Below are positions 8,735 through 50,000 of a stretch of 64,000 nt of DNA, piece after piece. The translations under genes were made by a program, and so were the position numbers. The notes under the pieces are model-generated. The model worked only from the letters and a program-made list of their open reading frames with translations. It did no database searches and was not told where the DNA came from. The stretch spans positions 1,240,001 through 1,304,000 of the forward strand of contig OX359190.1 in NCBI GenBank assembly GCA_947172415.1. The letters run 5' to 3'. This DNA is from Chondrosia reniformis (Eukaryota; Porifera; Demospongiae; Chondrillida; Chondrillidae). The number at the start of each line of letters is the position of its first letter. Within the stretch, counting starts at the first letter, position 1.

Positions 8735-11700
8735 ATGTCCAAAGATAAAGTGAGTTAATTCATTCATTCAGTTTCTCGTAGAAGTGGGCGTTACTATATA
8801 GACTCACAGTCGCTAACCTTTCACCGGTCAAAATGAGTTCAGTTTAATTTATAGGAAAAGGGCCCTTAGGGTGAATTTTCTGATTAGTAAGTAGGGGTCA
8901 AAATAGCAAAATGTTGAAAATTTTCAGTTTTTTGTTTTACGCATATAAAGAGACGTTGACCTATGCACGATTTATTCGTGCATTTTGAAATGTCAGAGAC
9001 ACCGTTAACAGCGGCCATTTTATAATAATTGGATGACGTCATTTAAATGGCTGCACATCTTAGAAGAATATTAAAAAATTATTACAATTATCTTGTCTCC
9101 TATAAAGATTAAGAGGTTAGAGGTAAGTTAAATGTTGTTGCTTAGTATATTATGATATGTTCATCTGTTTTAATGACTTAAGACCTACCAAGATAATAGT
9201 AACAAGGTTTTTTGTTAACTAATGATAAACTGTATTGTATTCTATTATCTATACGGATTAAAACCTCACTTTCACTTACAATCGCAATTGTTATGTACTA
9301 GACTGAGATAGACCCTGAAAATACTGGCTTACTTTTGCACAGAATACATGGCAGAGAGCATTAACCGCCGCTACAGTACTATTTTAACTCCCGCTGAACT
9401 ATTATTAGCATACAGAGAGGATGACATTATCAAACAGCAGCTAAACTTGTTACTACACTTACATATTTATATAATTGCATTTTTCAGTTTGTATTCTTTA
9501 AGTGCTGTTTCTCAAAATGCTGTTATTTGAACTTTTAATTTCTAGAGGATACTGTGGCTAGTATATTAATATTTAGTTGATGTTTGTGTATTGCACAGTC
9601 GGTAGGTTTCCTGAAGTATCAAAAAATGGCAAAAGAAGGATTTTTTAGTTTTCACCCTAAGGGCCCTTTTCCTATAAAACGGCCCATTTAGCAAACTACA
9701 TGTTCTGCCAGTATATATGAAACTCGTTACAGCAAATAGTACCATTCAGCGCAGGAAATATCTAGTCAGGTCTTGTAGCGGATAATAGAAACTAGTTCAG
9801 TGTTTGAAATGCGTCCAACTCGTCAGATTGAAATAGTGGTATTACCCGAGAATTCTCTAACAGTCAAACCTTTAGCTTTCAGAGACCCTTGCCCAAAGTC
9901 TCTTTGTTTAGAATACTGCGACAGAGTTGGGTTATGCAAAACCTCGCTCAAACTAGCTAGCGAAATGTAACCTTGAGATTCGTAGGCTTCTAAGGAACAC
10001 TTTAGAAATCAAAGTACGCCGCTCGTCCATATAGTGGCAGAATGTTTAACTGGTGCATGTTGAGGAGGTTCAGATTTAATAGATTATTAGACAGTAAACG
10101 CTGAAATGACTCTTTACATTCTGTTAAGTTGGACTTTGTACAAACAGACTGCATGATTTACAGACTGTAACTCAAAGGTTTCTTGTAATAAACTGCTACT
10201 GAAAACTTACATATCTGTGTGTGCTAATTTATAGAGAGTTACCAAGCAGACACGCTTCAATCAGTAAATGTTTCTTATCTCAATTAGATCTTTTGCAGTG
10301 ACCTCCTCAGAGCTGGAGGAGGTCATTTTCTCAACTCCACCAATATCCCCAAAATGTTGTTTGGAACATCCTTTGCTAGAGCACTTGCATATCTTCCAAG
10401 TGTTTTTGTCTATGGAGGATTATATGGAGGAACATCTGAACAGGTTCAGGTTTACAATGTTAATAACACTAAATGGTCAACACTGCCTCGACCTCCTCAT
10501 TCTGAGAGTGGAGCAGCCATCATAGGAAACCAGTTTACTTTAATAGGAGGTGAAAACACTCGTGGCATTCCTACAAACGATCTAGTGACGTGGACAGGCA
10601 AAGAATGGAAAATACTATATCCTCCAATGCACATCACCCGATCCTGGCCAGGTGTTCTTGCATTCGGAGACTTAGTAATTGTCTCTGGAGGAGGAGGAGG
10701 AACAGACACAATTGAATTCCTGGATGTTAACAAAAGAATATGGATACAGTCGAATCTGAAACTTCCTCTACCATTATCATCACACCACATGTCATTGTGT
10801 GGTGAATACATTTACATCTACTACTGGTTCAATGGATATTTTTGGAGAATGAATAAGAAGAATTTTATGGCTTCACTTACAACAAATGATGAACATCACT
10901 GGGAAGAGCTCGAGAATGCACCATTGTTCAGTTCACTATTACAATACAGCACGCTACCAGTCATAGTAGGCCCAGAAGGAATCTTCATTTTCGAGAAGAA
11001 GTGGACACGAATTAGTAAAGAAACGTCTTATCCCTACAATTGTACGGCTTCCCTCAACGGAACTACATTTCTCACATTTGGAGGAAGTGGAAGAGGAGGA
11101 GATCAGACAAGAGCTGTACAGTACGATATAGCAGTTAAGGTTAGTAAACTTGTTTAAGTATTACAAGTCTTGTTAACATTCGTTGCGTGCTTCGCGTACA
11201 CTTTCTCCTTCAAATAGAAACATTAGAAGGTTTTATTTCCTTCGTTAGAGTCACCTAACTTGTGCGCTCAGTGTATACACGAAGCGCGTGTCAATGTTAA
11301 CAAGACTTGTATTGCTTTAATGTTCTCGTACGAGTGTGTTCTACGAACGCTCTCACGAGTTTAAGTGTTAACTTGTTTCCACTAACGAAGACTGTTAAGT
11401 CTTCTTGTTCTTTGCATTTGAAGTGAGAAAGTAGAGGAAAGCGTTTCAAGTATTATCCTCTGTAGTTAAACTGCTTATTATCGCGTACTACGTACGTATA
11501 TTAATTTCTCGTCCTGTGAACGTTCGTGTGATTAGTTATAAGATGTTGGTAGTACAGAAATGTTAGTTGTAGACACGTTTAATAAACTACTTTCTAACAC
11601 AACGAGAGTTAACTGCTAGGCACGGAAGCTTCCCAAGGCGAAGTCGGCCATTTTGTTTTAGTATTCAACAAGTTGTAGCCTAATTTTTGGGCGCCGTTGT

Positions 11701-14700
11701 TTTTGTCTGTTTTTAAAAAAGAAGAGAGTTGCCACGTTTTTAAATTATACAATCTGTCTTGTTCAAAGTAAATGAAAGGTAAACAGAAGTCAAATGAAGG
11801 TGTCAGTGAATGTTTAGAAGAGATGTCGGGTTAATGCTTGTGGTCCTGTGGCCATTTTTAATTAGCTTTATTGACCAGTTATATATTGATTTGGAGAAAG
11901 TATTATCATACGAGAGTATGTCATATGTACATTTACATCATACATAGGTAGCTGCTTTATTGTCTGTTTGTGATCTAACTGTGCTATAAGATAAAAGTTG
12001 TTATATGTTAATGTATGACATGCTTTCATGGAAAATGTATGAAACCTGTAGTATAATAAGTTCCTTCTCTGTGCTCTACCTGCAGGGGGATCCTAAATGG
12101 TATAAACAGGCCATAGATGAACATGGTTCAGTTGAAGTGAACATTATCTGCTGTTTCCTCACAGGAGGCTCGCGTGTTGGTAAAACCTCACTGAAGCACT
12201 ACCTGCTCCACAACACAGCAAGAGAAGACAAAACTAACACTGGAGTGCTGGAAGCTCCTGAAGTGGCCACCATTGCACAAGGCATTGCCATTGGGTCTTC
12301 TTGGGAAGTTTTGGATGATGACAAATTAGGTGAACTTATTTCCCAAATTGATATGGAGAAGACAAAGACCTTTCCCAGCAACACTCCACACATCACAGAA
12401 TACTCGCCTCGACAAGCTACAGCAGCAGGTAACACAAGAGTATTGACTTTGTGGGACAAAGTCAAAAAGCTGTTTCAAAGAAAGTCAACAACAGTGCAGT
12501 CTGATGTCTCTCCCAATCCAACTCTGACTGCTGCCACACAAGCCCTTCCCAGCAAATCTCGTCCTTCCCCAGAACACCAGGACCCTTTACTGTTACTACA
12601 CCAGGCCAGGGAGAGATTCTTACTGAAGCACAGTGTTCCTACTGGAGCCACTTTTGATGAGAAGGAATGTACGTTCATTTACCTCCTGGACACAGGAGGC
12701 CAGCCCTCCTTTCAGAATGTCCTACCACTCCTACTGGACTTTCCCTGCAACTTTCTGCACGTCTTTAAAGCTTCCGAGAGGTTGACAGATCCGTACATCA
12801 ATGCTTACTGTCAAGATGGAATCACTGAAGAGAAGAGAGCCAACAGCCATTCAACCTGGGAATTGATGAAGGAGTCCGTTACAGCTGCCTACACAATGTC
12901 CATGAAGAGCAAGCGGCAGTTGGAAGCATTCAATGTTGCCACTGAGCCCCAATTGCGCATTTTCCTAGTTGGCACTCACCTTTCCCTTCTTCCTGAAGAT
13001 CCTGAAGCCAAGAGAGCTCTACTGGACCACAATGAGAAGGTTTTAGAAGAAATGGACAACAGACCATATGACAGCAACAGGGTATTTCCCCCAAAACAGG
13101 TTGTCTACAAAGGTGCTGGTAGCTACTTTGTAGTGGACAGTCAGCTACAGGGAGACAGCAAACTGAAGGAGCACACTCGTAAAGCTGTAAATGTTCTTCG
13201 CTCTCTACTTTCAGATGGCAAGAATCGGTTAACACTGAAAGTTCCCAAAGCTTGGTACTGCCTGCAACTAATCACATCTATTGCGAAAAAGAAGATGTGG
13301 AAGTTCACAGAACTGAAAGAGTTCTGCATCCAATGCCAATTTATCCAAGGTGTGGATGCTGATGGACAGCTCCTTGCACTGCTGAACCTTTTTCATTGCC
13401 TTGGGTTCTATGTGTACTTTGATCTGGGTGAGTACAAAGAGCAGTGGATCTGTACAGATGCAACCTTTCTGTACAAGGAAATGTCCAAAGTGCTATCAGT
13501 CCAGTATGGCCCAAATGAATCTCCAAGTCCAGAGCTACGCAAATTCATTGAAAAAGGTGTGATTTCTGAAGCAACTTCTGAAGATTTGTTCCAACAGCTA
13601 GGCATTGATGCTGACATCCCAACAAGATGGCTCCTGGAAGTCCTAGTAAATGTCGGTATTGCAGCCAAAGTGAGAGAGAAGGAGACATACTACTTCATTC
13701 CAGCAGTCCTTCCTGAGAGGCAGATCCACCTACCTGAAGCATCTGTGGCCACTTTGGGATTCACTTTCTCATTCCAATCTGACGAATATGAGAGATACAG
13801 CTGTGTACCAACTGGTCTATTCCACAGACTGGCTGTGGATATTGCAAGTGGCAGACAGGTTTTAAACGAGGAGGAAGTAAGGCCATTGCAGTTGAGACGA
13901 AAGCAGTGGAGATACTACCACAAGCAGTCTGACAGTAGACAGTTCATTTTCACACAAGAAAATGCCCACATTGCTCTTTCCCAAAAGGAAGACCTGATTC
14001 AACTTCAACTGTTGGTTCCTGAGGACTTTCCAAACACAGAGCCGTCCTTGTCTGAGCTCTGCAGGCACATCAGAAGGGAGATGTACGAGCGCATTTGTTA
14101 CGTGAGTGAGGTAGTATTTGGTGCAGAGTTTCTTGAAGAGAAAGCCACTCTAGAGGACGGGGTCATTTGCAGTCACCAGAATTGTAAGGGATCCAGTTTG
14201 CATCTTCTGCGATTTGAAGTCGGCAACCAGAGAAAGGGTCTGTGTACCAGACTGAACAAGATGACTGGACTAACTCCAAGAGAGTTGGTTTGGGTTGCTA
14301 AGGAACAGGACAGCAACACCAATGTAAGTTTGCATAATATTATGTATTCAACACAATAGACGTTATCACGAATGTAGCAATTATTGACTGTATATTTTAC
14401 ATTCTAATGTTGCTGCTACCGACGCTATATAATATGTTATTATTGTTATTATTTGGACACAAGTAATTTATTGATTTTATATCTTCTTCTGTATAGTTGA
14501 GCGTAGCTGGTAAAGTGAAATTTGACAGAGACCAGTTCCTTCTCTATAAAGACCAGTCTACCTGTACAGGAGGATCTGAAGTTGTTAGACAGCCAACATC
14601 ATCTGCCAACTCGGGAGAGTGTGATGGTGAGGGAGGCAGTTGGAAGCAGACCTTACGGGCCAAACACTGGGTTTACCTTGTTGAAAACCTCGCCACTGGT

Positions 14701-14961
14701 AACATAGTCAATGAACTATACCAGGGAGTGGGTGGAAAGCCACTAATTACAGACAAGGTGTATGATGAAATCAAAGCAGCAAAGAGCAGAGAAGAATCCA
14801 ATGTAATCTTTCTCCGTCACCTCCTGAGTACTGGTACAGAGGAGACATTGAGGCTGTTTTGTAAAGTGCTTCAAGATACATCTGTAAAGTATCCGGTACA
14901 TGAAGAGATTCTCCAGAAACTGCAAGAGGACAAGCAACTTTCACTTGTTTTTCATTTATAA
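8735..14961 (+). CDS. kelch-Roc-COR-CARD protein K1
   Basis: Four exons: 8735-8749, 10288-11139, 12086-14323 and 14497-14961, all joined in phase 0, giving about 1189 residues. Exon 1 encodes only MSKDK before a GTGAGT donor. Exon 2 is a kelch propeller (residues about 6-289). Exon 3 holds a Roc GTPase with P-loop GGSRVGKT (about 316-323) and switch DTGGQ (about 491-495), a GTHLS segment (about 585) in the G4 position, then COR (about 670-1000). Exon 4 ends in a CARD-like death fold (about 1087-1180). Roc-COR proteins are GTP-dependent dimeric switches and CARDs recruit other CARD proteins, so a cytosolic sensor-switch-adaptor role is inferred. No membrane segment is seen. Exon 2 cannot extend upstream because an in-frame TAG lies in the acceptor. 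The exon 1 join is the least certain step. Confidence 0.8.
8852..9685. mobile_element. 0.83-kb non-autonomous element inserted in K1 intron 1
   Basis: Units 2 and 3 read straight through this site (TTTAATTTAGCAAAC), whereas unit 1 is interrupted. The ends are inverted repeats containing TAGGAAAAGGGCCCTTAGGG (8852 rightwards and about 9676 leftwards). ATTTA flanks both sides as a probable 5-bp target duplication. The right end carries about 9 extra bases outside the inverted repeat, so the left tip may be truncated. No transposase is present; the small ORF at 9348-9530 has no recognisable domain. Confidence 0.65.
9809..9970 (+). other. small ORF in K1 intron 1, conserved in units 1-3
   Basis: A 53-codon ORF beginning MRPTRQIEIVVLPENS recurs at 24715-24882 and 47289-47456 with 53-55 codons. 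It could be an alternative first exon or an upstream ORF of the K transcript. The few differences between copies are mostly non-synonymous, so coding constraint is not demonstrated. Confidence 0.25.
10288..11139 (+). other. K1 exon 2: kelch propeller
   Basis: 284 codons. Repeated kelch signatures are visible: VYGG, then ...VYN...W; IGG...TWTGKEW; VSGG...DTIEFLDV...IW; and a final FGG near the C-end. The exon lies between acceptor TCAATTAG and donor GTTAGT. Compared with K2 and K3 the strands are near-identical, while inter-blade loops at about 10420-10445, 10640-10655, 10687-10705, 10762-10785, 10817-10835, 10912-10932 and 11085-11105 differ in sequence and often in length. Confidence 0.85.
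11164..11309. repeat. intronic inverted repeat (about 146 bp) after kelch exon, K1
   Basis: Arms beginning CAAGTCTTGTTAACATT and ending in its reverse complement extend imperfectly to about 38 bp, around a ~65-bp loop. It starts about 25 bp after the kelch donor and is found at the same place in K2 and K3. It could be an old MITE or a structured intronic RNA. Confidence 0.6.
12086..14323 (+). other. K1 exon 3: Roc GTPase and COR domain
   Basis: 746 codons from acceptor CTACCTGCAG to donor GTAAGT. Order: short linker, P-loop at exon residues 27-34, an insert of about 150 residues of low complexity between P-loop and DTGGQ (residue 202), GTHLS at about 296, COR from about 381 (W-x2-LQLI... then LLALLNLFHCLG). 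The C-terminal COR half has the PTGLFHRL motif. The insert is much longer than the P-loop-to-switch spacing of ordinary Roc domains. Confidence 0.85.
14497..14961 (+). other. K1 exon 4: C-terminal CARD-like domain
   Basis: 154 codons plus stop, acceptor TCTGTATAG. After a disordered Ser/Gly-rich linker the segment from LRAKHWVYLVENL to about HEEILQKLQ matches the CARD pattern of six helices: basic residue and LV-x2-L in helix 1, a G-x-ITDKVYDEI-like helix 3, then FLRHLLSTG and FCKVLQD. The same exon is 95% or more alike in K2 and K3. A generic death fold is the alternative. Confidence 0.75.
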
Positions 14962-24476: not shown

Positions 24477-27400
24477 ATGTCGGCCATAGATAAAGTGAGT
24501 TTATTCATTCTTTCAGTTTCTCGTAGAAGTGGGCGTTACTATATAGACTCACAGTCGCTAACCTTTCACCGGTCAAAATGAGTTCAGTTTAATTTAGCAA
24601 ACTACATGTTCTGCCAGTATATATGAAACTCGTTACAGCAAATAGTACCATTCAGCGCAGGAAATATCTAGTCAGGTCTTGTAGCGGATAATAGAAACTA
24701 GTTCAGTCTTTGAAATGCGTCCAACTCGTCAGATTGAAATTGTGGTATTACCCGAGAATTCTCTAACAGTCACACCTTTAGCTTTCAGAGACCCTTGCCC
24801 AAAGTCTCTTTGTTTAGAATACTGCGACACAGTTGGGTTATGCAAAACCTCGCTCAAACTAGCTAGCGAATTGCAACCTTGAAATTCGTAGGCTTCTAAG
24901 TAACAGTTTAGAAAGCGAAGTACGCCGCTCGTCCATATAGTGACAGAATGTTTAACTGGTGCGCGTTGAGGAGGTTAAGATTTAATAGACTATTAGTAGC
25001 GATAGCACGTAACTTTTTTATAGTCTAGAAAATGAGGTAAAATTTACATTTTTCAAAAGAATACGAACTAAACTTTTTTAGGTCTAAGTTTGGTAAAAAT
25101 CGGTCTTTCCGCTATTGAGAAACACTCCATGGAAAACATGAAATCAGAGATTTTTATATACGGGATTTCGTAATCTAAAAAATGGCACCACGCACCCCGT
25201 ATACTAAAAGAATATATTTATTTCAAAATATCGACCTAACAGTTATACCGACGGTTTCTACGGTAAACGATTGATGAAGAAACCATTTCAATAAGTGTCT
25301 AGTGAATGATTTCATGATCGTCACAAATGGGATACATCACTATTACGGTAGGTTTTATTTTATTCTCTGCAGCAGGAGTAATTTTTGCATCTTTTGCCCA
25401 AAATGAAATCTCCTATTACTGTATATATTCACTACTGATTGTACCTATCATCTTAACAAACTGTGGATCCTTGATAATTACTTGCCATGCCTTACTCAAT
25501 ACTGTCTATACACAGTTGAGCTGTAAAGTACCCTGCAACTGGAAGTGGTACTTAATTACCAAGGGTACTTATTATCCATTAAGGCAAACTTTTAATTAAT
25601 AATGAATTTAAATTTTGTATTATGTAATTGGATAAAGCAGTGCACAAAGGAATTACTATAGCACGATTATATGTTTTATTGAAAACCTCAGCTATAAAGG
25701 ACTACTGCATGCAGTTTGTTTGTCTGCCCTTCTACTTGTAGTAGAAACAATTTTTAACTCATCTTTAATTATGATTGAAGTTGCCATGTTTCATGTTATA
25801 AATGTTCAAAACACTTACCTTAGTCAGCAAATTTGTATGTAATATATAGCTGAGAAAACGTGTTATCTGTGTATGCAATGGTTAATTTTAGAATTGTAGA
25901 CTCTGAGTTATTTTTGTTCAAGTTGAAATAAGTTTAATCACTGAAGCCACTTATATAATACTTATTATCCCATGGACAGTACTAATAATTATAATATATG
26001 TGTGAGTCAATCCAACTGTATTTTTCTATAATAATACATTGTGCCAAACTTTAACACAATTACATGTAGTACTAAAGTTTCAAGCATGACAGTTGAATAT
26101 TAGAGTAACATGCATGCATATTTATATAGTTATTATAGATTAACAACTACAAGGTCACCATTATCATAGTCTTCCTTAAGATTAAGAGATAATATATCAT
26201 CCTCTTCATCATACTTTACATTGTACCAATGTTTTGTCCCTGGTACAACACTAACAATGTTTCCTTCATACCAAGTAAACTTTCCTGGTTCATCTTCCCA
26301 TCTGTGACGGATTTTACTGCCAGGAAATAGGTGAAATCCTTTTGACTGTATATGTGTTGCTGATGTAGACTGTTGGTCAACTATCTGAAAATTGACGATT
26401 TGGCTAAGTTGCTCAGTGACCTCTTCAACTGATAACTTTTTATGACCTCTTGACATAAAAAATAAATGTTTGGTGTTTGGTGTTTCTTGATCTAACACTT
26501 TCTTTCTAAAGTCTAATTGGGCTTTCAATGCCTTCAACTTCTCTCCTATTGTTACAAACGATTTAAGATGCTGCAAAATGTCTTCTCTTGTCTGCCAGAG
26601 TCCATATTTAATGATATTTTCTGTAAGATCTTCCTTTTCTTTCATTTTCTTCTGTCTAGCATTTTCTAGTGCTTCTTGCTTTTTCTTCAGGACCTGAGCT
26701 CTTTCCTGTATAATGGTCTGTCTCCTCTCCTTCAAGCATTTTCTAAACTCTGGTACCATTGCATGTGCCTTTTCCAGTATTGCTTTTTGCTCTTTTTCAG
26801 TCTTTTGCTTTAACCATTCTGATGTCTTATTGTTTGAGAATAATACCAAGCTTTCTAGTGCTAATGTACTAGCATTAGGCTTTTCCAATAAATATCTGTC
26901 CAACTTCGCAAAGTCTCTTTCACTGACAGTGTTACTTTTAGGAACTGACTTTGTTTCTTCAAGGAGAGAATCAGAAGGTTCACTAAGTGGGCCTTCACTA
27001 AGGAAATCATGCAAAAGTCTGCCTAAGAGAATGACAAATGACCTGAATATTAGCTGTAGCAATTCCTGGGTCAGAGCATCATTTTCACTTGGTCTGATTA
27101 ATGCATCCCATATGTGGTCAATCACTGGTGGTGAATCAATGTACAATGTAGCTTCACCAGATAGACATTCAGAAGCATCATTAGCCCAAATCTCCAGTTT
27201 TTCAACCAGTCTTCTATAATATGCTGTCATGTCTGTTATTGATATGTTACTGTTCTCTGTAATACGCCAAAGGGGACCAGTTACCAATTTTGACACAAGG
27301 CCTAGAGCACGAGCACCTGCCTGATATTCATTCACTTTTGCATCAGCCAATACAGCTTGCAACAACAGGTTGGGGGATTGCCAAACTTCAGTTAGAAATT

Positions 27401-30400: not shown

Positions 30401-33400
30401 ACTTATAGAGTACTACCGTACTCTATGATATATAGCATATTAAGCTCAGGTGTGACAATTTAATTGACTTCATTATCATCTTAACAATAATTAAACTATG
30501 AAATATCCATACTTATAATGGTCTGTACATATATATATATATAAGACTTATATAATACATATATACAACTATACTATATATACATCATTATAAATGATGA
30601 TCAATTAAGCAGCACGGGTACATGCTTGAACAATTACATTGGGCATACCACCATGGAAGTAAACATCCTGTACCATATATATACACTATAATATATCAAT
30701 AAACATCAGTATGTGTAGATTGATGCATGTACATGTGTATTCCCTAGCTATATACCACCACTCATTAACGTATACATGATGCGTAGCCTCGATTAGTATT
30801 CTAGTCAACGCAAAATATACGTATATAGAAAACCCGTCATGCATATAACTGTAAAGACAATTCCGCTTCCACTCTCCCAATTTAAAAGCGCCAAATTAGG
30901 AAAAATACTATCTTGGAGATACGCTTAGTGTTTCTGTAGATGAAGAGAAGAATTTTAAGTTGCTAATCACCTTGTAAATGATCGCCAAAAATTCACTGTA
31001 GTCTGATTTACGCTTACTGAAGATAAATTGCGACAAACTACCATCATAATCAAGATTATCATCAAGACTTACCTTAGAAATGTACTGTTTTAAATTTAGT
31101 ATTTTGCTTTGCTGCGGAAAACTTAAAAACAAAAATACAATTTCGGTGCAGTTATTGCCTATTAGTGTTTCCGTATGTAAAATTGCGCAATTCTCCGGAA
31201 GTGTGCTATCACTACTATTAGACAGTGAACGCTGAAATGACTCTTTACATTCTGTTAAGTTGGACTTTGTACAAACAGACTGCATGATTTACAGACTGTA
31301 ACTCAAAGGTTTCTTGTAATAAACTGCTACTGAAAACTTACATATCCGTGTGTGCTAATTTATAGAGTTTCCAGGCAGACACGCTTCAATCAGTAAATGT
31401 TTCTTATCTCAATTAGATCTTTCGCAGTGACCTCCTCAGAGCTGGAGGAGGTCATTTTCTCCAATCCACTGCTATCCCCAAAATGTTAACTGCAACATCC
31501 TATGCTAAAGCACTTGCACATCTTCCAAGTGTATTCGTCTATGGTGGCATTGAGGAACAGGTTCAGGTTTACAATATTAAGAATACTAAATGGTCAACAC
31601 TGCCTCGACTTCCTCATCATGACAGTGGAGCAGCCATCATAGGAAACCAGTTTACTTTAATAGGAGGTGAAGACACTCGTCGCATTCCTACAAACGATCT
31701 AGTGACGTGGACAGGCAAAGAATGGAAAGTACTATATCCTCCAATGCACACCGCCCGAACCGATCCAGGTGTTCTTGCATTTGAAGACTTAGTAATTGTC
31801 TCTGGAGGAGAAGCAGATGGCAAAGCAGTAGACACAATTGAATTCTTGGATGTTAACAAAAGAATATGGATACAGTCGAATCTGAAACTTCCTCGACCAT
31901 TAGCCACACACCACATGTCATTGTGTGGTGAATACATTTACATCTACTACTACAATGGATATTTTTGTAGAATGAATAAGAAGAATTTTATGGCTTCACT
32001 TACAACAAATGATGAACATCACTGGGAACGGCTCGAGGATGCACCAAAGTACAGTTCACTATTACAATACAGCACACTACCAGTCCTAGTAGGTCCAAAA
32101 GGAATCTTCATTTTCGAGAAGAAGAAGTGGACACGAATTAGTGAAGAAACGTCTTATGCCTACAATTGTACGGCTTCCCTCAACGGAACTACATTTCTCA
32201 CATTTGGAGGAAGAGAATTATTAGGAAACTTCTCATTAGGAGAACATCAGACAAGAGCTGTACAGTACGATATTGCAGTTAAGGTTAGTAAACTTATTTA
32301 AGTATTACAAGTCTTGTTAACATTCGTTGCGCGCTTCGCGTGCACTTTCTCCTTCAAATAGAAACATTAGAAGGTTTTATTTCCTTCGTTAGAGTCATCT
32401 AACTTGTGCGCTCAGTGTACACGAAGCGCGTGTCAATGTTAACAAGACTTGTGTTGCTTTAATGTTCTCATACGAGTGTGTTCTACGAACGCTCTCACGA
32501 GTTTAAGTGTTAACTTGTTTCCACTAACAAAGACTGTTAAGTCTTCTTGTTCTTTGCATTTGAAGTGAGAAAGTAGAGGAAAGCGTTTCAAGTATTATCC
32601 GCTGTAGTTAAACTATTATCGCGTGCCACGTAGGTATGTTAGTTTCTCGTCCTGTGAACGTTCGTGTGATTAGTTATAAGATGTTAGTAGTACAGAAATG
32701 TTAGTTGTAGACACGTTTAATAAACTGCTTCCTAACACAACGAGAGTTAACTGCTAGGCACGGAAGCTTCCCAAGGCGAAGTCCGCCATTTTGTTTTAGT
32801 ATTTAATTAGTCTTAGCCTAATTTTTTGGGGCGCCGTTGTTTTTGTCTGTTATTAAAAAGGAAGAGAGTTGCCACGCTTTTAAATTATACAGTCTGTCTT
32901 GTTCAAAGTAAGTGAAAGGTAAACAGAAGTCAAATGAATGTGTCAGTGAATGTTTAGAAGAGATGTCGGATATTGACTGTATTATACTTGGCTGAATTGA
33001 CTGTTCTCTAAAGATGCTTCTTGCTAGTTTTCCTAAAGCTAAGCATCACCGACAGTACTGATCTATTGACTGAATTTAATCAAAACCCAATCCATCTTTT
33101 CCTGCTCTGTTTGGTGGAGCAAAGTCATCTGATCTGTTCATATACATGCATATGAACCTGTAAATGTTTTAATAAATAGTACAGCTACAGCCAAGTTGTG
33201 TTACATAACAAAGCTGTCTTGAAAGAGCCTTCAGAAGTTGTATCTAAATAGAATGTAATTCATACTTTGAATGGCTATCCCCTCCTTAGCTGATAAGGAA
33301 AACCACAAGCTTTACCTTGTAAGAGTACTTATTGGCCATCTGTAAGCAGCAAGGGGGATACTTTGGTTCAATTATTAGAATTCCTCCCGTTGTATCTCAT

Positions 33401-36400
33401 TGCATTCCTCAGGAGACATGAGCTGATAAGGGTAACTCTAAGTACATATAATAATGACTTTGAAGATGGAGGAAAGCTTTGAAGTTTATAATTTTGCAGA
33501 CATGTTTGTCTGCTCAGATGACAATTAAACACTCTATAGGTAGTGAGACATTAGCCCAAGTACCTGATTGTAAACTTCAAAAATACAGACCTATCCATGC
33601 AGAGTATTAAACTCCTGTCCATGTTTAGAATGTCTGCTAATTGGTTACCTACTTAGTTGTTGTTTTATAACACAACTTTCCCATTTTACGTAATAGAAAA
33701 ATGTATTCTTTCTGACTGAATAGACAGATATGCATAAGTAATACTGCATGGAGCAGGTATATACGTATATTTAGTAACTGCCACAGGACATACGTATACC
33801 CAAATGACTACGTAGCTATTCCTAATAGCATAAACCTCTAATTACATATATGTATATGTATATGATATATAATCCATAGACACCGTCACATCAGTAGTTT
33901 GCTTATAATATTATGTATTTGTAAATTAAATTCAATGCTGCTACATGGAGCAGGTATGACAGACCTAGCTGGAAGCTGCCATATCAATAATTTAAAATTT
34001 GACCTAATATAAAGTGCTTCTGCCATTCCAATAACAGTAAAGCCTGATATTTTAGATAGTAGCATCTCTCTGAGTGGCATTCTGCTACGTAATTATAAGA
34101 CTCTCTATAGTTGCATAATACTAGCATAGTAACTTCTCAGACATACGTATTAAAAGAGACTTCAAAAACTGTTTTTAGGTATGTAGGTTCCATATCTTGC
34201 ATGTCATTTCTGTGACAATGGCCTACCTCCGTATGATGGTAAAACTGGCATCAGTTTGAATATGGCGCATAACAGATAAGGTTGAACTGATAAAGAAAAC
34301 ACAAAACCATTTAGGACACTCCATAGAGGACGTTAAAGTAGTTTCTAGTTGATCACATGTGAACTGTAGCAGGCATTTGAGGAATAATAAACTGATAACC
34401 CTCAAATTAGGATAATGAAAAATTGAAACTGTTTATAATTTAATACACACTTAAACATATTTGAAGTGTTTGAAGTATTCACTATTCTCACCAATTAAGT
34501 TTATCACTTTTACGTTTGGATGCATTATTGCAGCTAACATGAAATATAGAAATGCAATGTTTTTGTTAGCCTTATCACATAATCACTGTCTCTTTATCTA
34601 GTCACTAGCTGTTTTATATGTACGTATATAAGAGTCCAAACAGTATAATCCACTGGTTTGAGCATACTTTTACTTTATATATTGCCATCCTAAATTATTG
34701 TGGTTTTGTATGTACATTGTACAGGGTCCTAAGTGGTATCAAGAAGCCATAGAAGGACATGGTTCAGTTGAAGTGAACATTAGCCGTGCAATCTTCACAG
34801 GAGGCTCGCGTGTTGGTAAAACCTCACTGAAGCACTACCTGCTCCACAACACAGTAAGAGAAGACAAAACTAGCACTGGAGTGCTGGAAGCTCCTGAAGT
34901 GGCCACCATTGCTGGGGACGGAGTAGGCACAACAGATCAGAGGCTAGAGGTAGGCCAGGGGAAGGTAGAGGAGTGTAGCTTCACAAAAGGTGTTGCTGCT
35001 GGGTCTCTTTGGAAAGTGATGGATGATGAAGAGATGGGACAGCTCATTTCATTGGCAGATATGAAAGTAAAGGAAAACTTTCCAATTATAGCTACTTCAG
35101 AACAAGAAGCAACAGCCACTGAAGTTGAAAGTCCATCCGAACCAAGTGAAGATCAAACCGTGACCCAACAACCGGAAGGCCTTCTCACGAGGATCATGAA
35201 AGGAGTGAAGAAACTGTTTCAAAGAAGACCAGCAAATGAAACAACTGAGCAGTCAGTTGCCAATTCACTTCAGCCTCCTAGTACCCAAGACCCTCCCAGT
35301 GACAATTCACTACAACAACATGAGGATCCTTTAGAATTGCTGGAGCAAGCCAGGGACAGCTTCTTGCAGAAGCACAAACTATCCACTGAGGCAGAATTTG
35401 ATGAGAAGCAGTGTACGTTCATTTACCTCCTGGACACTGGAGGCCAGCCCTCCTTTCAGAATGTCATTCCACTCCTACTGGACTTTCCCTGTACCTTTGT
35501 ACATGTTTTTAAAGCTTCAGAGAGGTTGACAGATCCGTACATCAATGCTTACTGTCAAGATGGAATCACTGAAGAGATAAGAGCCAACAGCCGTTCAACC
35601 TGGGAATTGATGAAGGAGTCCATTACAGCTGCCTACACAATGTCAATGAAGAGCAAGCGTCAGTTGGAAGAATTTGACATGCCTAATGAGCCCCAACTTC
35701 GCATTTTCTTTGTTGGCACTCACCTTTCCCATCTTCCTGAAGATCTTGAAGCTAAGAGAGCTCTACTGGACCATAACAAGAAGGTTCTAGAGGAAATGGA
35801 CAACAAGCCTTATGATGGCAACAGGGTTTTCCCCCCAAAAGAGGTTACCTACAAAGGTGCCAGTAGCTACTTTCTTGTCGACAGTCAGCTACAGGGAGAC
35901 AGCAACCTGAAGGATCACACTCACAAAGCTATTAATACCCTCCGCTCTCTACTTTCAGATGCCAATTTCCAGTTGACATTGAAGGTCCCCAAAATTTGGT
36001 TCTGCCTGCAACTAATCACATCTTGCGTGAAAAAGAAGATGTGGAAGTTCACAGAACTGAAAGAGTTCTGTATCCGATGCCAATTTATCCAAGGTGTAGA
36101 TGCTGATGGACAGCTCCTTGCACTGTTGAAGCTGTTTCATTGCCTTGGGTTCTATGTGTACTTTGACCTGAGTGAGTACAAAGAGCAGTGGATCAGTACA
36201 GATGCAACCTTTCTGTACAAGGAAATCTCCAAAGTGCTATCAGTCCAATATGGTCCGGAGAATGAATCCTTGACTCCAGAGTTACGCATCTTCAAAGAAA
36301 AAGGAGTAATTCCTGAAGCTGTTTCTGAAGCTTTGTTCCAACAGCTAGGTATTGATGCTGACATCCCAACAAGATGGCTCCTGGAGGTCCTGGTACATGT

Positions 36401-37695
36401 TGGTATTGCAGCCAAAGTGGTAGAGAAGACAAAGATGCACTTCTTCATCCCCACAGTCCTTCCTGAAAGGAATATCAGTTTGCCTACTGAATCAGTGGCC
36501 ACTTTGGGATTCACTTTCTTGTTCCACTCCGTCCAATATCAGAGGTACAGCTGTGTACCGACTGGTCTATTCCACAGACTGGCTGTGGATATGGCTAGTA
36601 GCAGACAAGTTCATAAGGTTAAGAAAGTGAGCCGAGCCTACATTGGTGGAAACCAGTGGAGGTACTGTCCCAGTCAATCTGACAGTACTCAATTTATTTT
36701 CTCCCAAGAGAATGCCCACATTGTCCTTTCCCAAAAGGAGGACCTCATTCAACTCCAACTGCTGGTTCCTAAGCATTTTTCAACTCTTGCCCTCTCTTTG
36801 ACTGAACTCTGCAAGCACATCAGGGAGGAAATGGAAGAACGCATTCACTACGTGAGCAAAAGAGTGTTTGATGCAGAGTTTCTTGAGGAGAAAGCTACTT
36901 TAGAAGTAGGTGTCATCTGCCATCACCAGAATTGCAGGACCTCCAGTTTGCATCTTCTGTGCTTTGAAGGTGACACTCAAAGAACAGGTCTATGTACCAG
37001 ACTGAACAAGATGACTGGACTAACTCCAAGAGAGTCTGTTTGGGTTGCTAAGGAACAGGACAGCAACACCAATGTAAGTTTGCATAATATTATATATTCA
37101 ACAAAATAGACCTTATCAATTACAATTATTGACTGTATATTTTACATTGCTACGGACTCTATTTAATATGCTATTGTTATTCTTTGGACACAAGTAATTT
37201 ATTGATTTTGTATCTTCTTCTGTATAGTTGAGCGTGGCTGGTGAAATGGAAGTTGATAGAGACCAGTTCCTTCTCTATAAAGACCAGTCTACCTGTACTG
37301 AAGAACCTGAAGTTGTTAGACAGCCAACACCATCTGCCAACTCGGGAGAGTGTGATGGTGAAGGAGGCAGTTGGAAGCAGACCTTACGGGCCAAACACTG
37401 GGTTTACCTTGTTGAAAACCTCGCCACTGGTAACATAGTCAATGAACTGTACCAGGGAGTGGGTGGAAAGCCACTAATTACAGACAAGGTGTACGATGAA
37501 ATCAAAGCAGCAAAGAGCAGAGAAGAATCGAATGTAATATTTCTCCGTCACCTCCTGAGTACTGGTACAGAGGAGATATTGAGGCTGTTTTGTAAAGTGC
37601 TTCAAGATACATCTGTAAAGTATCCGGTACATGAAGAGATTCTGCAGAAACTGCGAGAGGACAAGCAACTTTCACTTTTTTCCATTTATAATTAA
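24477..37695 (+). CDS. kelch-Roc-COR-CARD protein K2
   Basis: Exons 24477-24494 (MSAIDK), 31417-32283 (kelch, 289 codons), 34725-37073 (Roc-COR, 783 codons), 37228-37695 (CARD, 155 codons), all in phase 0, about 1233 residues. Same domain order and motifs as K1 (GGSRVGKT, DTGGQ, GTHLS, PTGLFHRL). It is the most divergent of the three complete copies, especially in the Roc insert, which includes a GVKKLFQRRP segment, and in the last 200 residues of COR. Intron 1 (6.9 kb) contains a whole DNA transposon. Intron 2 is 2.4 kb against 0.95 kb in K1. The reading frame is intact, so the gene tolerates the insertion if intron 1 is spliced. Confidence 0.78.
24715..24882 (+). other. small ORF in K2 intron 1 (paralogue of 9809-9970)
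   Basis: 55 codons starting MRPTRQIEIV. It is the unit 2 counterpart of the K1 intron ORF. Role unknown; may be non-coding. Confidence 0.2.
24989..24996. repeat. left target-site duplication
   Basis: ACTATTAG directly before the left terminal inverted repeat. It is matched at 31214-31221 and present once in units 1 and 3. Confidence 0.7.
25327..25599 (+). other. hydrophobic 90-codon ORF inside transposon, unsupported
   Basis: Encodes a short, largely apolar peptide beginning MGYITITVGFILFSAAG with two possible membrane segments. There is no paralogue in the window, no splice evidence and no recognised family. Chance ORF or passenger gene. Confidence 0.2.
26133..29261 (-). CDS. transposon-encoded protein, putative DDE/D-like transposase with coiled coil and Tudor-like end
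   Basis: A single uninterrupted ORF. I start at 29261 (MAKSISFPEL, ATGG context) rather than the ATG at 29294, which lies in the palindrome; the product is about 1042 residues. The N-terminal third is Lys/Glu-rich and forms long coiled coils (about residues 160-310). The core has LHSDGTTK (Asp near 396) and MSDRHIVEKNF (Asp near 464), followed by MNNFFCGMHLL. Such D...D spacing and motifs suggest an RNase H-fold transposase, but I cannot assign the third acidic residue. Another Lys/Glu-rich helix follows. The last 60 residues (RHRWEDEP...WYEGNIVS...DYDNGDLVVV) resemble a Tudor-like barrel. Position inside TIR-bounded, target-duplicated DNA supports a transposon role. Confidence 0.6.
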   Translation of the reverse strand: MAKSISFPELESIGIQISVLLHLSEESMQASIPPLDDASALTKKVALELNQVRTSYNIPWDNYRKWIELLIGHLNVTIPPVSTLSSSISRIIAKQKKMKKNKKAQELEELLGETFLSNKEKVDKSTYNTTQRVSQSRSSDNQVLSTPKENQQDLELLRTNADLCKEIKDLQNLLRKEIIAKEQLHQKLKMFNLRNINKRIKRRDQIIISNKNTIRELKKQLSKNKKTTYSLDKKSERFRARVGYSKTKQQKQEDHILRMERDIEEFEMEVNGMKAEISHLKQEINDLQAERDDLIDKLKGSATIQLSHNKLPTKEHQQKYCPNIRQCCIQLLSLNVGIRNVEPIIRSVLHHLVGIEAADLPQYTALRNMLVEMKGIAYLQLIDELKNEENITLHSDGTTKFSHHYGSFQLSTSAKSLSLGLSDMASGTASATLEAFESLVNQLDMISESEGKKIVTKIKNTMSDRHIVEKNFNGLLEKYRASVLPEIIEGWDSLSPFERNQITVMNNFFCGMHLLIGMADVAASTLLQWERANFEDPRGAASLPRLNVQKGESGTVRFIRTACKAFQKHGSQQVSVHQYFNSFLSSKGILRNPLASFRGNRFNILFYDGGAVYYISDLILQFLTEVWQSPNLLLQAVLADAKVNEYQAGARALGLVSKLVTGPLWRITENSNISITDMTAYYRRLVEKLEIWANDASECLSGEATLYIDSPPVIDHIWDALIRPSENDALTQELLQLIFRSFVILLGRLLHDFLSEGPLSEPSDSLLEETKSVPKSNTVSERDFAKLDRYLLEKPNASTLALESLVLFSNNKTSEWLKQKTEKEQKAILEKAHAMVPEFRKCLKERRQTIIQERAQVLKKKQEALENARQKKMKEKEDLTENIIKYGLWQTREDILQHLKSFVTIGEKLKALKAQLDFRKKVLDQETPNTKHLFFMSRGHKKLSVEEVTEQLSQIVNFQIVDQQSTSATHIQSKGFHLFPGSKIRHRWEDEPGKFTWYEGNIVSVVPGTKHWYNVKYDEEDDILSLNLKEDYDNGDLVVVNL
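29278..29651. repeat. perfect palindrome, 2 x 175 bp with 24-bp spacer
   Basis: 29278-29452 and 29477-29651 are exact reverse complements by direct reading. It lies immediately 5' of the transposase-like ORF, and its left arm contains the ORF's upstream ATG. A related AAGTAGGGATGGC tip recurs in inverted orientation near 30392-30404, so one or more nested elements may be present. Confidence 0.9.
29652..31202. other. transposon interior, no gene recognised
   Basis: AT-rich sequence with scattered short ORFs. It includes a (GAA)n tract and TA-rich stretches near 30530-30600. No domain is recognised. Confidence 0.4.
30148..30191. repeat. (GAA)n microsatellite
   Basis: Uninterrupted AAG/GAA trinucleotide tract, about 14 units. 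Confidence 0.9.
31214..31221. repeat. right target-site duplication
   Basis: ACTATTAG directly after the right terminal inverted repeat. The first A could belong to the repeat, in which case the duplication is 7 bp. Confidence 0.7.
31417..32283 (+). other. K2 exon 2: kelch propeller
   Basis: 289 codons between acceptor TCAATTAG and donor GTTAGT. Blade strands equal those of K1. Loops differ: IEEQ replaces the longer LYGGTSEQ loop, SGGEADGKAVDT replaces SGGGGGTDT, and FGGRELLGNFSLGEHQ replaces FGGSGRGGDQ. Confidence 0.85.
32308..32451. repeat. intronic inverted repeat after kelch exon, K2
   Basis: Same element as 11164-11309, with the outer 17-bp stem intact. Confidence 0.6.
32452..34724. 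other. K2 intron 2 remainder
   Basis: Shares blocks with the K3 intron (for example AGCTGATAAGGAAAACCACA) and has extra unique AT-rich DNA at about 33400-34180. Around 34500-34610 there is weak similarity to the transposon palindrome arm (GTTAGCCTTATCACATAATC), possibly a decayed relative. No exon is supported. Confidence 0.4.
34725..37073 (+). other. K2 exon 3: Roc GTPase and COR domain
   Basis: 783 codons. The P-loop is at exon residues about 27-34 and the DTGGQ switch about 237-241, so the intervening insert is about 35 residues longer than in K1. COR motifs (LLALLKLFHCLG, PTGLFHRL) are conserved. Confidence 0.85.
37228..37695 (+). other. K2 exon 4: C-terminal CARD-like domain
   Basis: 155 codons plus stop. 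The CARD body is near-identical to K1, and the last residues differ (LFSIYN end) through small indels. Confidence 0.75.
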
Positions 37696-44527: not shown

Positions 44528-44695
44528 TTTTGGATGGAACATGATCTTTAGACTTGTTGAGCATCTGAAGACATAGGTTTTGTTATTCTATGGTATCTCT
44601 CAGTCGCTGATGAAGACACTCGAGATCAAAATGCCAAAACTGTATCTTTAGACACTCAACAAGTTGAAAGATGTACCATCCAAAAGATACATTCA
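44528..44695. mobile_element. MITE-like foldback element, S3 intron
   Basis: Orthologue of 6183-6332. Confidence 0.5.
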
Positions 44696-46488: not shown

Positions 46489-46905
46489 CTATAGTTGGGA
46501 GATTATCATCACAGTCATATTTACCAGTGGATCCAACACTAGTACTGTTGCTGTATAGCAAGTGATACAGAAGTAGGTGTCATCCTTTAATTGGCACCAG
46601 CCACACTTGCACCCTGCAGGGAAGGAGAACAAATGAATAACATTATGACACCAATGAATACAATTTAAGGGCTCTCATAATGTTATTCATTGGATTAGTA
46701 CTTCCTCATTAAGATCCTGTGGAATGTATATAGACATCACAAAACAATACCAGACCCTATCAGATCAGTACATGTGACCTCCACTGGCTGGAGAGACTAC
46801 TATGTACTTGTATGTAGGCCTACCTACCTCACCTGATCCTTCAACCAAAGAAACACTAGAGGACCACGTGACTAGATAATACCGGAAGTGCATACGAACC
46901 GCCAT
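46489..46905 (-). CDS. divergent small cysteine-rich protein, unit 3 copy
   Basis: Exon 1 46833-46905 (MAVRMHFRYY, donor GTGAGG, phase 1) and exon 2 46489-46613 (acceptor CCTGCAG, stop TAG), giving about 65 residues. Exon 2 begins GCKCGWCQLKDDTYFCITC, sharing the unit 2 motif. The C-terminal halves differ because of rearrangement after the sixth cysteine region. Exon 1 is less clearly a signal sequence than in unit 2. Family unknown; model tentative. Confidence 0.35.
46632..46691. repeat. perfect 17-bp-stem hairpin, unit 3
   Basis: AATGAATAACATTATGA and its reverse complement, as at 24039. Confidence 0.8.
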
Positions 46906-47056
46906 TTTTAAGTGCTACATCCGCTGAGATCAAAGAGATTACTGCAAATAGGCGTTGCTATAGTTGCAATCACAGTTGTGATAGAAATTCCAGTCACAAG
47001 TTTCAGTTGTGTTCAGTTAGTTTTTCAGTTCAGTTTTTCGTTTCTTCGTTAGCTCC
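46906..47056. promoter_or_regulatory. putative bidirectional promoter of K3 and antisense gene
   Basis: Equivalent to 8584-8734. About 150 bp between opposing ATGs. Confidence 0.35.
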
Positions 47057-50000
47057 ATGTCCAATCCAGTGAGTTAATTCATTCATTCAGTTTCTCGTAG
47101 AAGTGGGCGTTACTATATAGACTCACAGTCGCTAACCTTTCACCGGTCAAAATGAGTTCAGTTTAATTTAGCAAACTACATGTTCTGCCAGTATATATGA
47201 AACTCGTTACAGCAAGTAGTACCATTCAGCGCAGGAAATATCTAGTCAGGTCTTGTAGCGGATAATAGAAACTAGTTCAGTCTTTGAAATGCGTCCAACT
47301 CGTCAGATTGAAATAGTGGTATTACCCGAGAATTCTCTAACAGTCACACCTTTAGCTTTCAGAGACCCTTGCCCAAAGTCTCTTTGTTTAGAATACTGCG
47401 ACAGAGTTGGGTTATGCAAAACCTCGCTCAAACTAGCTAGCGAAATGCAACTTTGAAATTCGTAGGCTTCTAAGGAACACTTTAGAAAGCTAAGTACGTC
47501 GCTCATCCATATAGTGGCAGAATGTTTAACTGGTGCACGTTGAGGAGGTTCAGATTTATTAGACTATTAGACAGTAAACGCTGAAATGACTCTTTACATT
47601 CTGTTAAGTTGGACTTTGTACAAACAGACTGCATGATTTACAGACTGTAACTCAAAGGTTTCTTGTAATAAACTGCTACTGAAAACTTACATATCCGTGT
47701 GTGCTAATTTATAGAGAGTTTCCAAGCAGACACGCTTCAATCAGTAAATGTTTCTTATATCAATTAGATCCTTCGCAGTGACCTCCTCAAAGCTGGAGGT
47801 CATTTTCTGAAAACCACCAATATCCCGGAAATGTTAAATATAACATCCTTTGCTAAAGCACTTACACATCTCCAAAGTGTATTCGTCTATGGTGGCATTG
47901 AGAAACAGGTTCAGGTTTACAATATTAAGAACACTAAATGGTCAACACTGCCTCGACCTCCTCATTCTCAGAGTGGAGCAGCCATCATTGGGAACCAGTT
48001 TACTTTAATAGGAGGTAGAGACACTCGTGGCATTCCTACAAACGATCTAGTGACATGGACAGGCAAAGAATGGAAAGTACTATATCCTCCAATGCACACC
48101 GCCCGAGCCTTTCCAAGTGTTCTTGCATTTGAAGACTTAGTAATTGTCTCTGGAGGAGGAGAAGGAGGAGCAGACACAATTGAATTCCTGGATATTAACA
48201 AAAGAATATGGATACAGTCGAATCTGAAACTTCCTGGATCATCATTCGATCACTACATGTCATTGTGTGGTGAATACATTTACTACTACTTGGAAGGATA
48301 TTTTTGGAGAATGAATAAGAAGAATTTTATGGCTTCACTTACAACAAATGATGAACATCATTGGGAACGGCTCGAGAAAGCACCAAGGGGCAGTTCACTA
48401 TTACAATACAGCACACTACCAGTCGTAGTAGGTCCAAGAGGAATCTTCATTTTCGAGAAGAAGAAGTGGACACAAATTAGTGAAGAATCGTCTTATCCCT
48501 ACAATTGTACGGCTTCCCTCAACGGAACAACATTTCTCACATTTGGAGGAAGAAAAGGATTTGGAGGAGGATATGAGACAAGAGCTGTACAGTACGATAT
48601 TGCAGTTAAGGTTAGTAAACTTGTTTAAGTATTACAAGTCTTGTCAACATTCGTTGCGCGCTTCGCGTACACTTTCTCCTTCAAATAGAAACATTAGAAG
48701 GTTTTATTTCCTTCGTTAGAGTCACCTAACTTGTGCGCTCAGTGTACACGAAGCGCGTGTCAATGTTAACAAGACTTGTATTGCTTTAATGTTCTCGTAC
48801 GAGTGTGTTCTACGAACGCTCTCACGAGTTTAAGTGTTAACTTGTTTCCACTAACAAAGACTGTTAAGTCTTCTTGTTCTTTGCTTTTGAAGTGAGAAAG
48901 TAGAGGAAAGCGTTTCAAGTATTATCCGCTGTAGTTAAACTGTTTATTATCGCGTGCTACGTACGTATATTAATTTATCGTCCTGTGAACGTTCGTGTGA
49001 TTAGTTATAATATGTTGGTAGTACAGAAATGTTGGTTGTAGACACGTTTAATAAACTGCTTCCTAACACAACGAGAGTTAACTGCTAGGCACGGAAGCTT
49101 CCCAAGGCGAAGTCCGCCATTTTGTTTTAGTATTCAATTAGTCTTAGCCTAATTTTTGGGGCGCTGTTGTTTTTGTCTGTTTTTAAAAAGGAAGAGAGTT
49201 GCTACGTTTTTAAATTATACAATCTGTCTTGTTCAAAGTAAGTGAAAGGTAAACAGAAGTCAAATAAATGTGTCAGTGAATGTTTAAAAGAGATGTCGGG
49301 TATTGACTGTATTACTTGGCTGAATTGACTGTTCTCTAAAGATGCTTCTTGCTAGTTTTCCTAAAGCTAAGCATCACCAATAATATTGACCTACTGACTA
49401 AATTGTCAAAAGAATGTTTGTTTATAAACACAGACTGTCCCTTTGTGGGTAGACTATTGAAAAGTAATTAATGTGTAAAGTTAGGCAATGACAATACTCA
49501 ATGTGTAGCATTCACATGTAGCAATGGATCATCTAATTAATCAAGACCCCATTCTACTCTTATTGATAAGAGTGTGATGAAAGATAAAGATCTGTATTTA
49601 TGAACCTGTAAATGTTTTAATAAATAGTACAGCTACAGCCAAGTTGTGTTACATAACAAAGCTGTCTTGAAAGAGCCTTCAGAAGTTGTATATACGTAAA
49701 TGGAATGTAATTCACACTTTGGATGGCTATCCCCTCCTTAGCTGATAAGGAAAACCACAAGCTTTACCCTGTAAGAGTACTTATTGGTCGTCTTTAAGTG
49801 GCAAGGGGATAGTTTGGTTCAATTATTGGACTTCAATTCCTCCCGTTGTATCTCATTGTATTCCTCAGGAGACATGAGCTGATAATGGTAACTCTAAAGT
49901 ATAATAATGTCATTTGGATTAAAATCTTCCTATTTCTGTAACAATGGCCTACCTCCAAACGATAGTAAATCTGGCGTGTTTGAATACAGCGAATAGCAGG

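Follow-up and report, generated by a model that had tools for sequence, protein, structure and literature searches.

Plants and fungi are known to have intracellular receptors whose hypervariable binding surfaces are under positive selection (PMC2873952, PMC8226289, PMC4986451). In the HNWD proteins of Podospora anserina (HET-D, HET-E and HET-R) an NTPase switch is combined with a beta-propeller, the interaction-surface loops of which are reported to be under diversifying selection, with exchange among the members (PMC2873952, PMC4986451). The highly variable NLRs (hvNLRs) of plants are defined by at least 10 positions with an entropy above 1.5 bits (PMC8226289), and in brown algae ROC-COR proteins whose repeat domain is shuffled and subject to diversifying selection were proposed as immune receptors, LRR-ROC-COR being given as the sole architecture in these algae (PMC11378527). 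The sponge literature that we met deals with NACHT-LRR NLRs (PMC12909245) and also with SRCR genes. Here we describe a 64,000-nucleotide stretch of chromosome 2 of the sponge Chondrosia reniformis (C2:1240001-1304000, the window; the genome has 117,379,552 bases in 15 contigs), which carries tandem copies of a predicted gene for a kelch propeller, a ROC-COR GTPase and a CARD. We consider it likely that they belong to a tandem family of cytosolic sensors, NLR-like but ROCO-based, in which the propeller face formed by the DA and BC loops is under recognition-type diversifying selection for new binding specificities.

The window holds three kelch exons on the plus strand, at 10288..11139 (unit 1, six-bladed, found also with the Pfam kelch models), 31417..32283 (unit 2) and 47768..48610 (unit 3). 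All three are open and their acceptor and donor sites are in one phase. The initial annotation had described them as a frozen scaffold with hypervariable loops on otherwise near-identical DNA; the segments that it quoted are present, and the copies are indeed 91-93% identical across exon and flanks, the proteins being 81-82% identical to the third copy. Structural classes were taken from the DSSP strands of an AlphaFold model of the unit 3 kelch domain, independently of variability. On this basis the DA loops of unit 1 lie at 10345..10374 (blade 6 to 1), 10483..10509 (1 to 2), 10612..10650 (2 to 3), 10753..10785 (3 to 4), 10909..10959 (4 to 5) and 11017..11040 (5 to 6), and its BC loops at 10417..10446 (loop 1, GLYGGTSEQV), 10546..10581 (loop 2), 10687..10710 (loop 3, GGGGGTDT), 10819..10839 (loop 4) and 11080..11112 (loop 6), all on the plus strand. 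The eleven DA/BC loops of unit 2 span 31474..32256 on the same strand (31474-31503, 31546-31563, 31600-31626, 31663-31698, 31729-31767, 31804-31836, 31879-31911, 31945-31962, 32032-32082, 32143-32166, 32206-32256), and the eleven of unit 3 span 47822..48583, again on the plus strand (47822-47851, 47894-47911, 47948-47974, 48011-48046, 48077-48115, 48152-48178, 48221-48253, 48287-48301, 48371-48421, 48482-48505, 48545-48583). Summed over the three pairs of window exons, the proportions of nonsynonymous (pN) and synonymous (pS) differences in these loops were 0.177 and 0.058, that is, 130 nonsynonymous against 14 synonymous changes; at all other positions the counts were 61 and 32 (pN 0.051, pS 0.098). 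The loop restriction of the nonsynonymous change is thus borne out in the window itself.

The unit 3 kelch exon gave at least 139 matches when the genome was searched with it. Family A consists of at least 39 full-length kelch copies (76-100% identity), 35 of them at C2:0.77-1.51 Mb, three at C2:8.18-8.29 Mb and one on C13; one copy with an internal stop (L025) was dropped, and the codon alignment comprised the 38 intact exons. The near-identical L042 and L044 were excluded from the linkage, loop-sharing (leave-one-out) and bootstrap analyses, which therefore used 36 copies. As a second family (B), 59 further copies with 52-71% identity were fetched, mainly from C2:1.7-4.0 Mb, three being on C5 and one on C7. 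Forty-nine of them were kept after removal of L086, L087, L097 and L100, truncated or with an end not recognised, and of L094, L098, L099, L101, L102 and L103, judged divergent. More distant kelch arrays, about 35% identical, were seen at C7:6.02-6.12 Mb, C14:0.60-1.09 Mb and C9:5.03-5.28 Mb; in the C7 array Pfam CARD matches occur 3-5 kb after the kelch exons, which hints at kelch-CARD genes without this ROC-COR.

Over the whole family A exon pN was 0.087 and pS 0.095 (all pairs, tree-free, 269 near-ungapped columns), and the balance differed by structural class, columns inserted relative to unit 3 taking the class of the preceding residue. The BC loops had a pN/pS of 2.37 and the DA loops of 1.53, compared with 0.87 in AB, 0.65 in CD and 0.46 in the strands; the short terminal segments that lie beyond the propeller had 1.5. 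For the DA and BC loops combined the ratio was 1.86 (bootstrap 1.69-2.07), and strands, AB and CD together 0.55 (0.49-0.62); pN exceeded pS in 98.9% of the 630 pairs for the DA and BC loops and in 6.2% elsewhere. The DA loops alone, which are nearly without length change, gave 1.59 (1.39-1.80), and the site-wise dN/dS check proposed in the initial annotation is answered by loop ratios well above 1. Its statement on indels also stood, the length changes being whole codons: 84 alignment columns are gapped across the 38 copies, 52 in BC loops and 27 classed as strand, 24 of these 27 being inserted at the margins of BC loops 4 and 1. Two of its expressions were too strong. The scaffold is constrained but not frozen, and the loops do differ between copies, though not every loop in nearly every residue, PLPLSSHH and PRPLATHH sharing 5 of 8.

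With a custom FUBAR-type site model (threshold P>0.95), 51 of 282 family A sites were called positively selected and 25 under purifying selection. When four block-specific trees replaced the single tree, 38 sites were called, 36 of them in common with the first set. Simulated controls gave 0 of 400 sites under neutrality and 1 of 400 under an omega mixture reaching up to 1 (0.2-1). Family B had 36 selected sites out of 279, and in unit 3 numbering the two families had 19 selected positions in common, while 27 were confined to A and 13 to B (Fisher 4.5e-9). As a control, the ROC-COR exon was analysed in 14 copies out of at least 58 (the 12 best matches to unit 3, unit 3 among them, plus units 1 and 2), a gene set different from the kelch set and an alignment extending three codons into the intron; omega was 0.46, none of the 761 columns was positively selected and 135 showed purifying selection. 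When 14 kelch copies were drawn at random five times, omega was 0.95-1.00 and 22-39 of the 282 sites were called selected.

The AlphaFold model of the unit 3 kelch domain is a six-blade fold with a predicted local distance difference test score (pLDDT) of 89.7. Among the closest PDB folds listed are the kelch domains of LZTR1, NS1-BP, KLHDC3, KEAP1 and KLHL12, together with plant specifier proteins and YjhT, which we take to be kelch-type as well; the listed matches are propellers of the kelch type and include the KEAP1-Nrf2, KLHL12-peptide and KLHDC2 complexes. The selected sites are concentrated on the DA/BC face: they make up 36 of its 110 columns but 15 of the 155 columns in strands, AB and CD (Fisher 3e-6; 17 terminal columns, holding no site, were left out of this test). 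The block trees gave 26 of 110 against 11 of 155 (1.4e-4) and family B 24 of 108 against 11 of 154 (4e-4). The proposal of diversifying selection on one propeller face is therefore supported by the loop pN/pS and by the concentration of sites on it; both checks agree with the proposal, the selection lying mainly on that face. In kelch propellers the DA and BC loops are described as forming the bottom face, where the substrate pocket lies, and the most conserved sites of K13, KEAP1, KLHL2, KLHL3 and KLHL12 are found in this pocket (PMC6650413). In the sponge family the pattern is the opposite, the DA/BC face being the most variable.

The variety of the loops is not accompanied by an elevated silent rate, since pS was 0.091 in the DA and 0.080 in the BC loops compared with 0.113 in the strands. 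Divergence of the flanks between copies had a median of 0.031 and a mean of 0.077, 204 of 703 pairs being above 8%. Loop pN had a median of 0.163, exceeded the flank divergence in 83.8% of the 703 pairs, and was about 0.16 at flank divergences of 1-2% and of more than 8% alike (rank correlation -0.06). Within the exon, linkage between sites was near chance level (mean r2 0.03-0.08), and in a test similar to the pairwise homoplasy index (PHI) none of 2000 permutations was as low. Since loop change is unlinked from the flanks and nearly unlinked within the exon, paralogues exchange pieces. In a loop table drawn around the variable columns, unlike the structural classes, the loop combination was unique in 36 of the 36 exons compared; BC3, BC4, the DA loop between blades 4 and 5 and BC6 were nearly always unique. 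New variants are supplied by point change and codon-sized indels, and selection keeps the new loop combinations that arise from exchange.

Kelch copies were also found on other public contigs. A 10.53-Mb and a 260-kb contig carry copies identical to exons of the window genome and a 540-kb contig has one at 99.3%, thus these three belong to the same species; an 800-kb contig has one copy at 96.1% and a 728-kb contig none so close, and judged from these sequences both are likely to be of the same species. From 120 listed protein matches (19 further ones lay beyond the list) the 19 near full-length family A proteins lacking a close counterpart in the window genome were taken and shorter ones left out. 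None of these 19 had a match above 91% among the 38 family A exons of the window genome, and a direct genome search with two of them gave at most 90% identity. Ten come from the 800-kb contig, four from the 540-kb, one from the 728-kb and four from the 10.53-Mb contig. By the loop table drawn around the variable columns, their loop variants were shared with the window genome in 95 of 228 cases, the same rate as among the window-genome copies (190 of 432).

In the predicted gene a tiny exon 1 is followed by the kelch propeller, the ROC-COR GTPase and the CARD, the gene models being predicted from the DNA. In unit 1, exon 1 (MSKDK, donor gtgagt) is predicted at 8735..8749, the ROC-COR exon is at 12086..14323, recognised by the Pfam scan and GTPase motifs, and the CARD exon with the stop is at 14497..14961, homologous exons of which pass the Pfam CARD cut-off. 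Unit 2 has an open ROC-COR exon at 34725..37073 (Pfam scan) and an open CARD exon with stop at 37228..37695 (Pfam CARD scan). Its exon 1 was not found, and its first intron holds a 6.2-kb transposon-like insert. In unit 3, exon 1 (MSNP) is predicted at 47057..47068, the ROC-COR exon lies at 50287..52566 and the CARD exon with stop at 52731..53195 (Pfam CARD scan, AlphaFold model and fold search). A fourth unit is represented by its exon 1 at 63815..63829, the kelch exon beginning just past the window end. All of these are on the plus strand. The predicted proteins have 1189 (unit 1) and 1199 residues (unit 3). Their highest 19-residue hydropathy is 1.59, inside the ROC-COR exon, and no membrane helix is evident in the exons found (by hydropathy only; no signal-peptide or other dedicated predictor was run). 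The Pfam scan of the exons showed no BTB domain before the kelch, only the exon of 4-5 codons preceding it in units 1 and 3; no NACHT or NB-ARC NTPase was matched in the kelch and ROC-COR exons by Pfam, ROC motifs being present instead, and no LRR domain was found in the Pfam scans of the kelch, ROC-COR and CARD exons. A Dscam-like gene with alternative cassettes was considered and rejected, since each window kelch exon has its own ROC and CARD exons downstream. The same holds for the ROC exons in the wider cluster, where for 21 of the 22 listed plus-strand family A kelch exons at C2:0.77-1.51 Mb the matches listed include a ROC exon that starts no more than 4 kb downstream (by eye), none being listed for the kelch exon at C2:1335846.

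The ROC-COR exon matched at least 58 places over at least 683 of its 771 residues, all but one on C2. Three motifs of the exon, which we take to be G1, G3 and G4, are well kept in the 14 copies: GGSRVGKTSLK in all 14, DTGGQ in 13, and VGTHLS in 13, the last copy having IGTHLS by a V-to-I change. Among the 39 alignment members, 17 matched the Pfam Roc model at E<=0.01 (best 2.6e-7) and 17 the COR-A model (best 1.3e-5). A search of the ROC-COR exon profile against the PDB sequences gave nothing at E<=1.

The CARD exons of the window match the Pfam model weakly (15.9-17.2 bits, cut-off 23.9), and four homologous exons with 43-46% identity, at C2:1130693, 1310437, 1424669 and 1828874, pass the cut-off with 24.0-24.5 bits. 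Three of these four lie within 4 kb downstream of family A ROC exons, two of them with another CARD-type exon in between. At C2:1309556-1310709 and at C2:1421293-1424938 a single ROC exon is followed by a pair of CARD-type exons, thus some family members may carry a second CARD. The AlphaFold model of the CARD exon has six helices (49-152), an overall pLDDT of 66 and values mostly of 70-92 in residues 51-150. In a Foldseek search 46 of the 50 nearest PDB chains listed were CARD proteins (TMt up to 0.79), the other four being three designed proteins and one transferase; against the PDB sequences the CARD region alone gave one weak, unrelated match. Searched against the genome, the window CARD exon gave 160 matches spread over many chromosomes, a number that includes fragments of single exons counted separately.

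Other elements were noticed in the window. A semaphorin-like gene, with Sema and PSI Pfam matches above the cut-off and then a cytoplasmic-tail exon, is co-duplicated with the window units (2281-7730, about 18.2-23.2 kb, 41.0-45.7 kb and 57.2-62.2 kb), the copy at 45094 being interrupted. In the genome its tail exon matched 23 places, 11 of which are uninterrupted and 97-100% identical, a smaller number than that of the kelch copies (39). The gene was rejected as a part of the variation, the tail exons being 98% identical in three of the four window copies. The insert in intron 1 of unit 2 (24996-31214) has inverted ends, TAGCGATAGCAC and GTGCTATCACTA, with CTATTAG on both sides, and on the minus strand it contains an open frame of 1053 residues that matches Spin/Ssty weakly. 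At 3129-3323, just 3' of a semaphorin-gene exon, there is a 29-base tandem repeat of 6.7 copies, open in three plus-strand frames, and peptides resembling those of this repeat occur near 41.4 and 57.5 kb. A dispersed repeat of 500 bases, 88-97% identical, is present seven times in the window (4353, 15231, 19810, 37931, 42677, 53473 and 58871).

The following mode of action would fit a family of ROCO-based sensors. A ligand, perhaps a product of microbes or viruses, or else a self protein or a guarded one, would bind to the variable DA/BC face; the ROC-COR module would then change state or dimerise, and the clustered CARDs would recruit a CARD-bearing effector. By the exchange of exon pieces between paralogues loop variants are recombined into new combinations, duplication and conversion keep most flanks alike, and the GTPase module stays conserved while the DA/BC face diversifies. 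Of this picture the architecture, the selection and its face, and the recombination are observed, whereas the ligand, the switching, the signalling by CARDs and the immune role are inferred. Selection and architecture together make an immune-type recognition likely. A faint hint may come from two other sponges exposed to microbial patterns, in which two "Kelch motif containing" transcripts, for which the passages concerned give no domain make-up, fell by log2 -5.7 and -12.6 to -13.5 (PMC6208332).

Several observations weigh against selection for recognition on the DA/BC face by such sensors. Simulations with recombination only (10-codon blocks, no positive selection) produced 2-20 false sites per 280 in 12 runs, thus a part of the 51 calls is spurious. 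Since the site calls are inflated by recombination, the tree-free pairwise counts are the main evidence; at a Bayes factor above 500 there remain 19 real sites against 0-2 in the eight simulation runs so scored. Fifteen of the 51 sites are on strands or on the AB/CD face, three of the strongest "strand" sites being at position 175, on the insertion-bearing edge of BC loop 4. When the DA/BC face is compared with the opposite loops alone the difference is weaker (36 of 110 to 5 of 42, 0.0065; block trees 26 of 110 to 4 of 42, 0.037; family B 24 of 108 to 4 of 42, 0.055). The 13 N-terminal residues outside the propeller have a pN/pS of 1.36-1.5, with no site passing. The silent divergence of the exon has a median of 0.091, higher than that of the flanks, and in 66% of the pairs scaffold pN is above the flank divergence; either the flanks are homogenised or the exon draws on older variants, and homogenised flanks are an imperfect neutral yardstick. 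The comparison is of paralogues, in which divergence of subfunctions is mixed with selection for variety. As for the domains, the window copies are below the curated Pfam cut-off for Roc and also for COR-A (E 3.5e-4 to 5.4e-3), and the Foldseek E-values of the CARD model are 0.07 or worse.

Some of these points would suit an artefact, in which relaxed constraint, alignment error or recombination mimics selection. The strong recombination, the inflated site calls and the indels in the BC loops speak in its favour, but the pairwise ratio is above 1 without any tree, also in the DA loops that hardly change in length, and loop pN mostly exceeds the divergence of the flanks; we hold this explanation to be very improbable. 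A targeted hypermutation of the loops would explain why change is limited to short segments. However, silent sites do not change faster there than in the strands, therefore such a mechanism has hardly any chance of being the cause. If the copies were substrate adaptors for protein turnover or signalling, each would have a different endogenous partner. This agrees with the binding of substrates on the DA/BC face of KLHL kelch domains (PMC6650413) and with the KLHDC2 and KLHL12 complexes among the fold matches. Against it, the scanned exons have ROC-COR and CARD in place of a BTB match and the pocket conserved in the proteins of that source is here the variable part, which makes an adaptor function quite unlikely.

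The genes might also be allorecognition determinants, the variable face telling self from non-self tissue by haplotype-specific loop sets. Diversifying selection on the loops, the variants on other public contigs that have no close match in the window genome and the uniqueness of every loop combination would be expected of such a system, and from the sequences a role of this kind is possible. However, the gene as reconstructed has no long hydrophobic stretch, so the kelch-ROC-COR-CARD protein looks cytosolic, which suits a sensor inside the cell better than an allorecognition receptor on its surface. The co-duplicated semaphorin-like gene, a membrane gene, is for its part nearly invariant in its uninterrupted tails. 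As an account of the family we regard allorecognition as unlikely.

The ROCO-based sensor family can be compared with several known proteins. In Apaf-1, CED-4 and the NLRC proteins a CARD and a repeat domain for sensing flank an NTPase module, the repeat domain of Apaf-1 being a beta-propeller; in the sponge the order of the domains is reversed and the class of the NTPase is different. Tachylectin-2 has a propeller fold and, to our knowledge, neither GTPase nor CARD. Like the sponge family, the tachylectin-2 of Oculina is a marine invertebrate protein under positive selection with a putative immune role (PMC2880987), but it is a lectin studied as alleles of one gene. KEAP1 and the KLHL proteins share the kelch fold and its DA/BC ligand face, but they carry a BTB and keep the pocket conserved (PMC6650413). 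Both halves of the sponge layout have precedents among ROCO proteins, as Roc-COR is accompanied by WD40 or kelch motifs in Dictyostelium members and followed by a death domain in DAPK1 (PMC6320773). The open-licence titles and abstract openings listed (8-20 papers per search), outside which most of the subscription literature lies, contained no description of kelch, ROC-COR and CARD together or of a tandem hypervariable family of this kind.

The brown-algal LRR-ROCO proteins are alike in having a ROC-COR with a diversifying repeat domain, but their LRR exons are shuffled and alternatively spliced (PMC11378527), whereas each sponge copy is a complete kelch gene. As in the plant hvNLRs, the variability is above the hvNLR threshold, with entropy over 1.5 bits in 31 of the 282 kelch columns, although this is entropy across paralogues of one genome, not alleles, and NB-ARC and LRR were not found in the Pfam scans. 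The HNWD proteins are similar in their switch, their propeller with diversifying loops and the exchange among members, but they have a STAND NTPase and WD40 repeats, while the sponge proteins have a six-bladed, N-terminal kelch propeller encoded by one exon, with ROC-COR as the switch and CARD as the output, and vary in loops and not in repeat number. The sponge genes would be another solution, in which a kelch face is joined to a ROC-COR switch and to a CARD, in one of the earliest-branching groups of animals; they offer a candidate sponge locus for the recognition of pathogens, symbionts or individuals and, for structural biology, a natural collection of loop variants on a ligand face whose fold has been well studied. 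More tentatively, at somewhat less than an even chance, an animal lineage may have evolved independently a large set of intracellular receptors in its germline: some dozen loops resembling complementarity-determining regions, mostly on one kelch face, would be diversified by selection and reassorted by recombination, a ROCO GTPase would link them to a CARD, and the sets would differ between haplotypes, the genes possibly serving also as an individuality locus. If this is true, the family would be the ROCO-based counterpart of the plant hvNLRs and of the fungal HNWD proteins.

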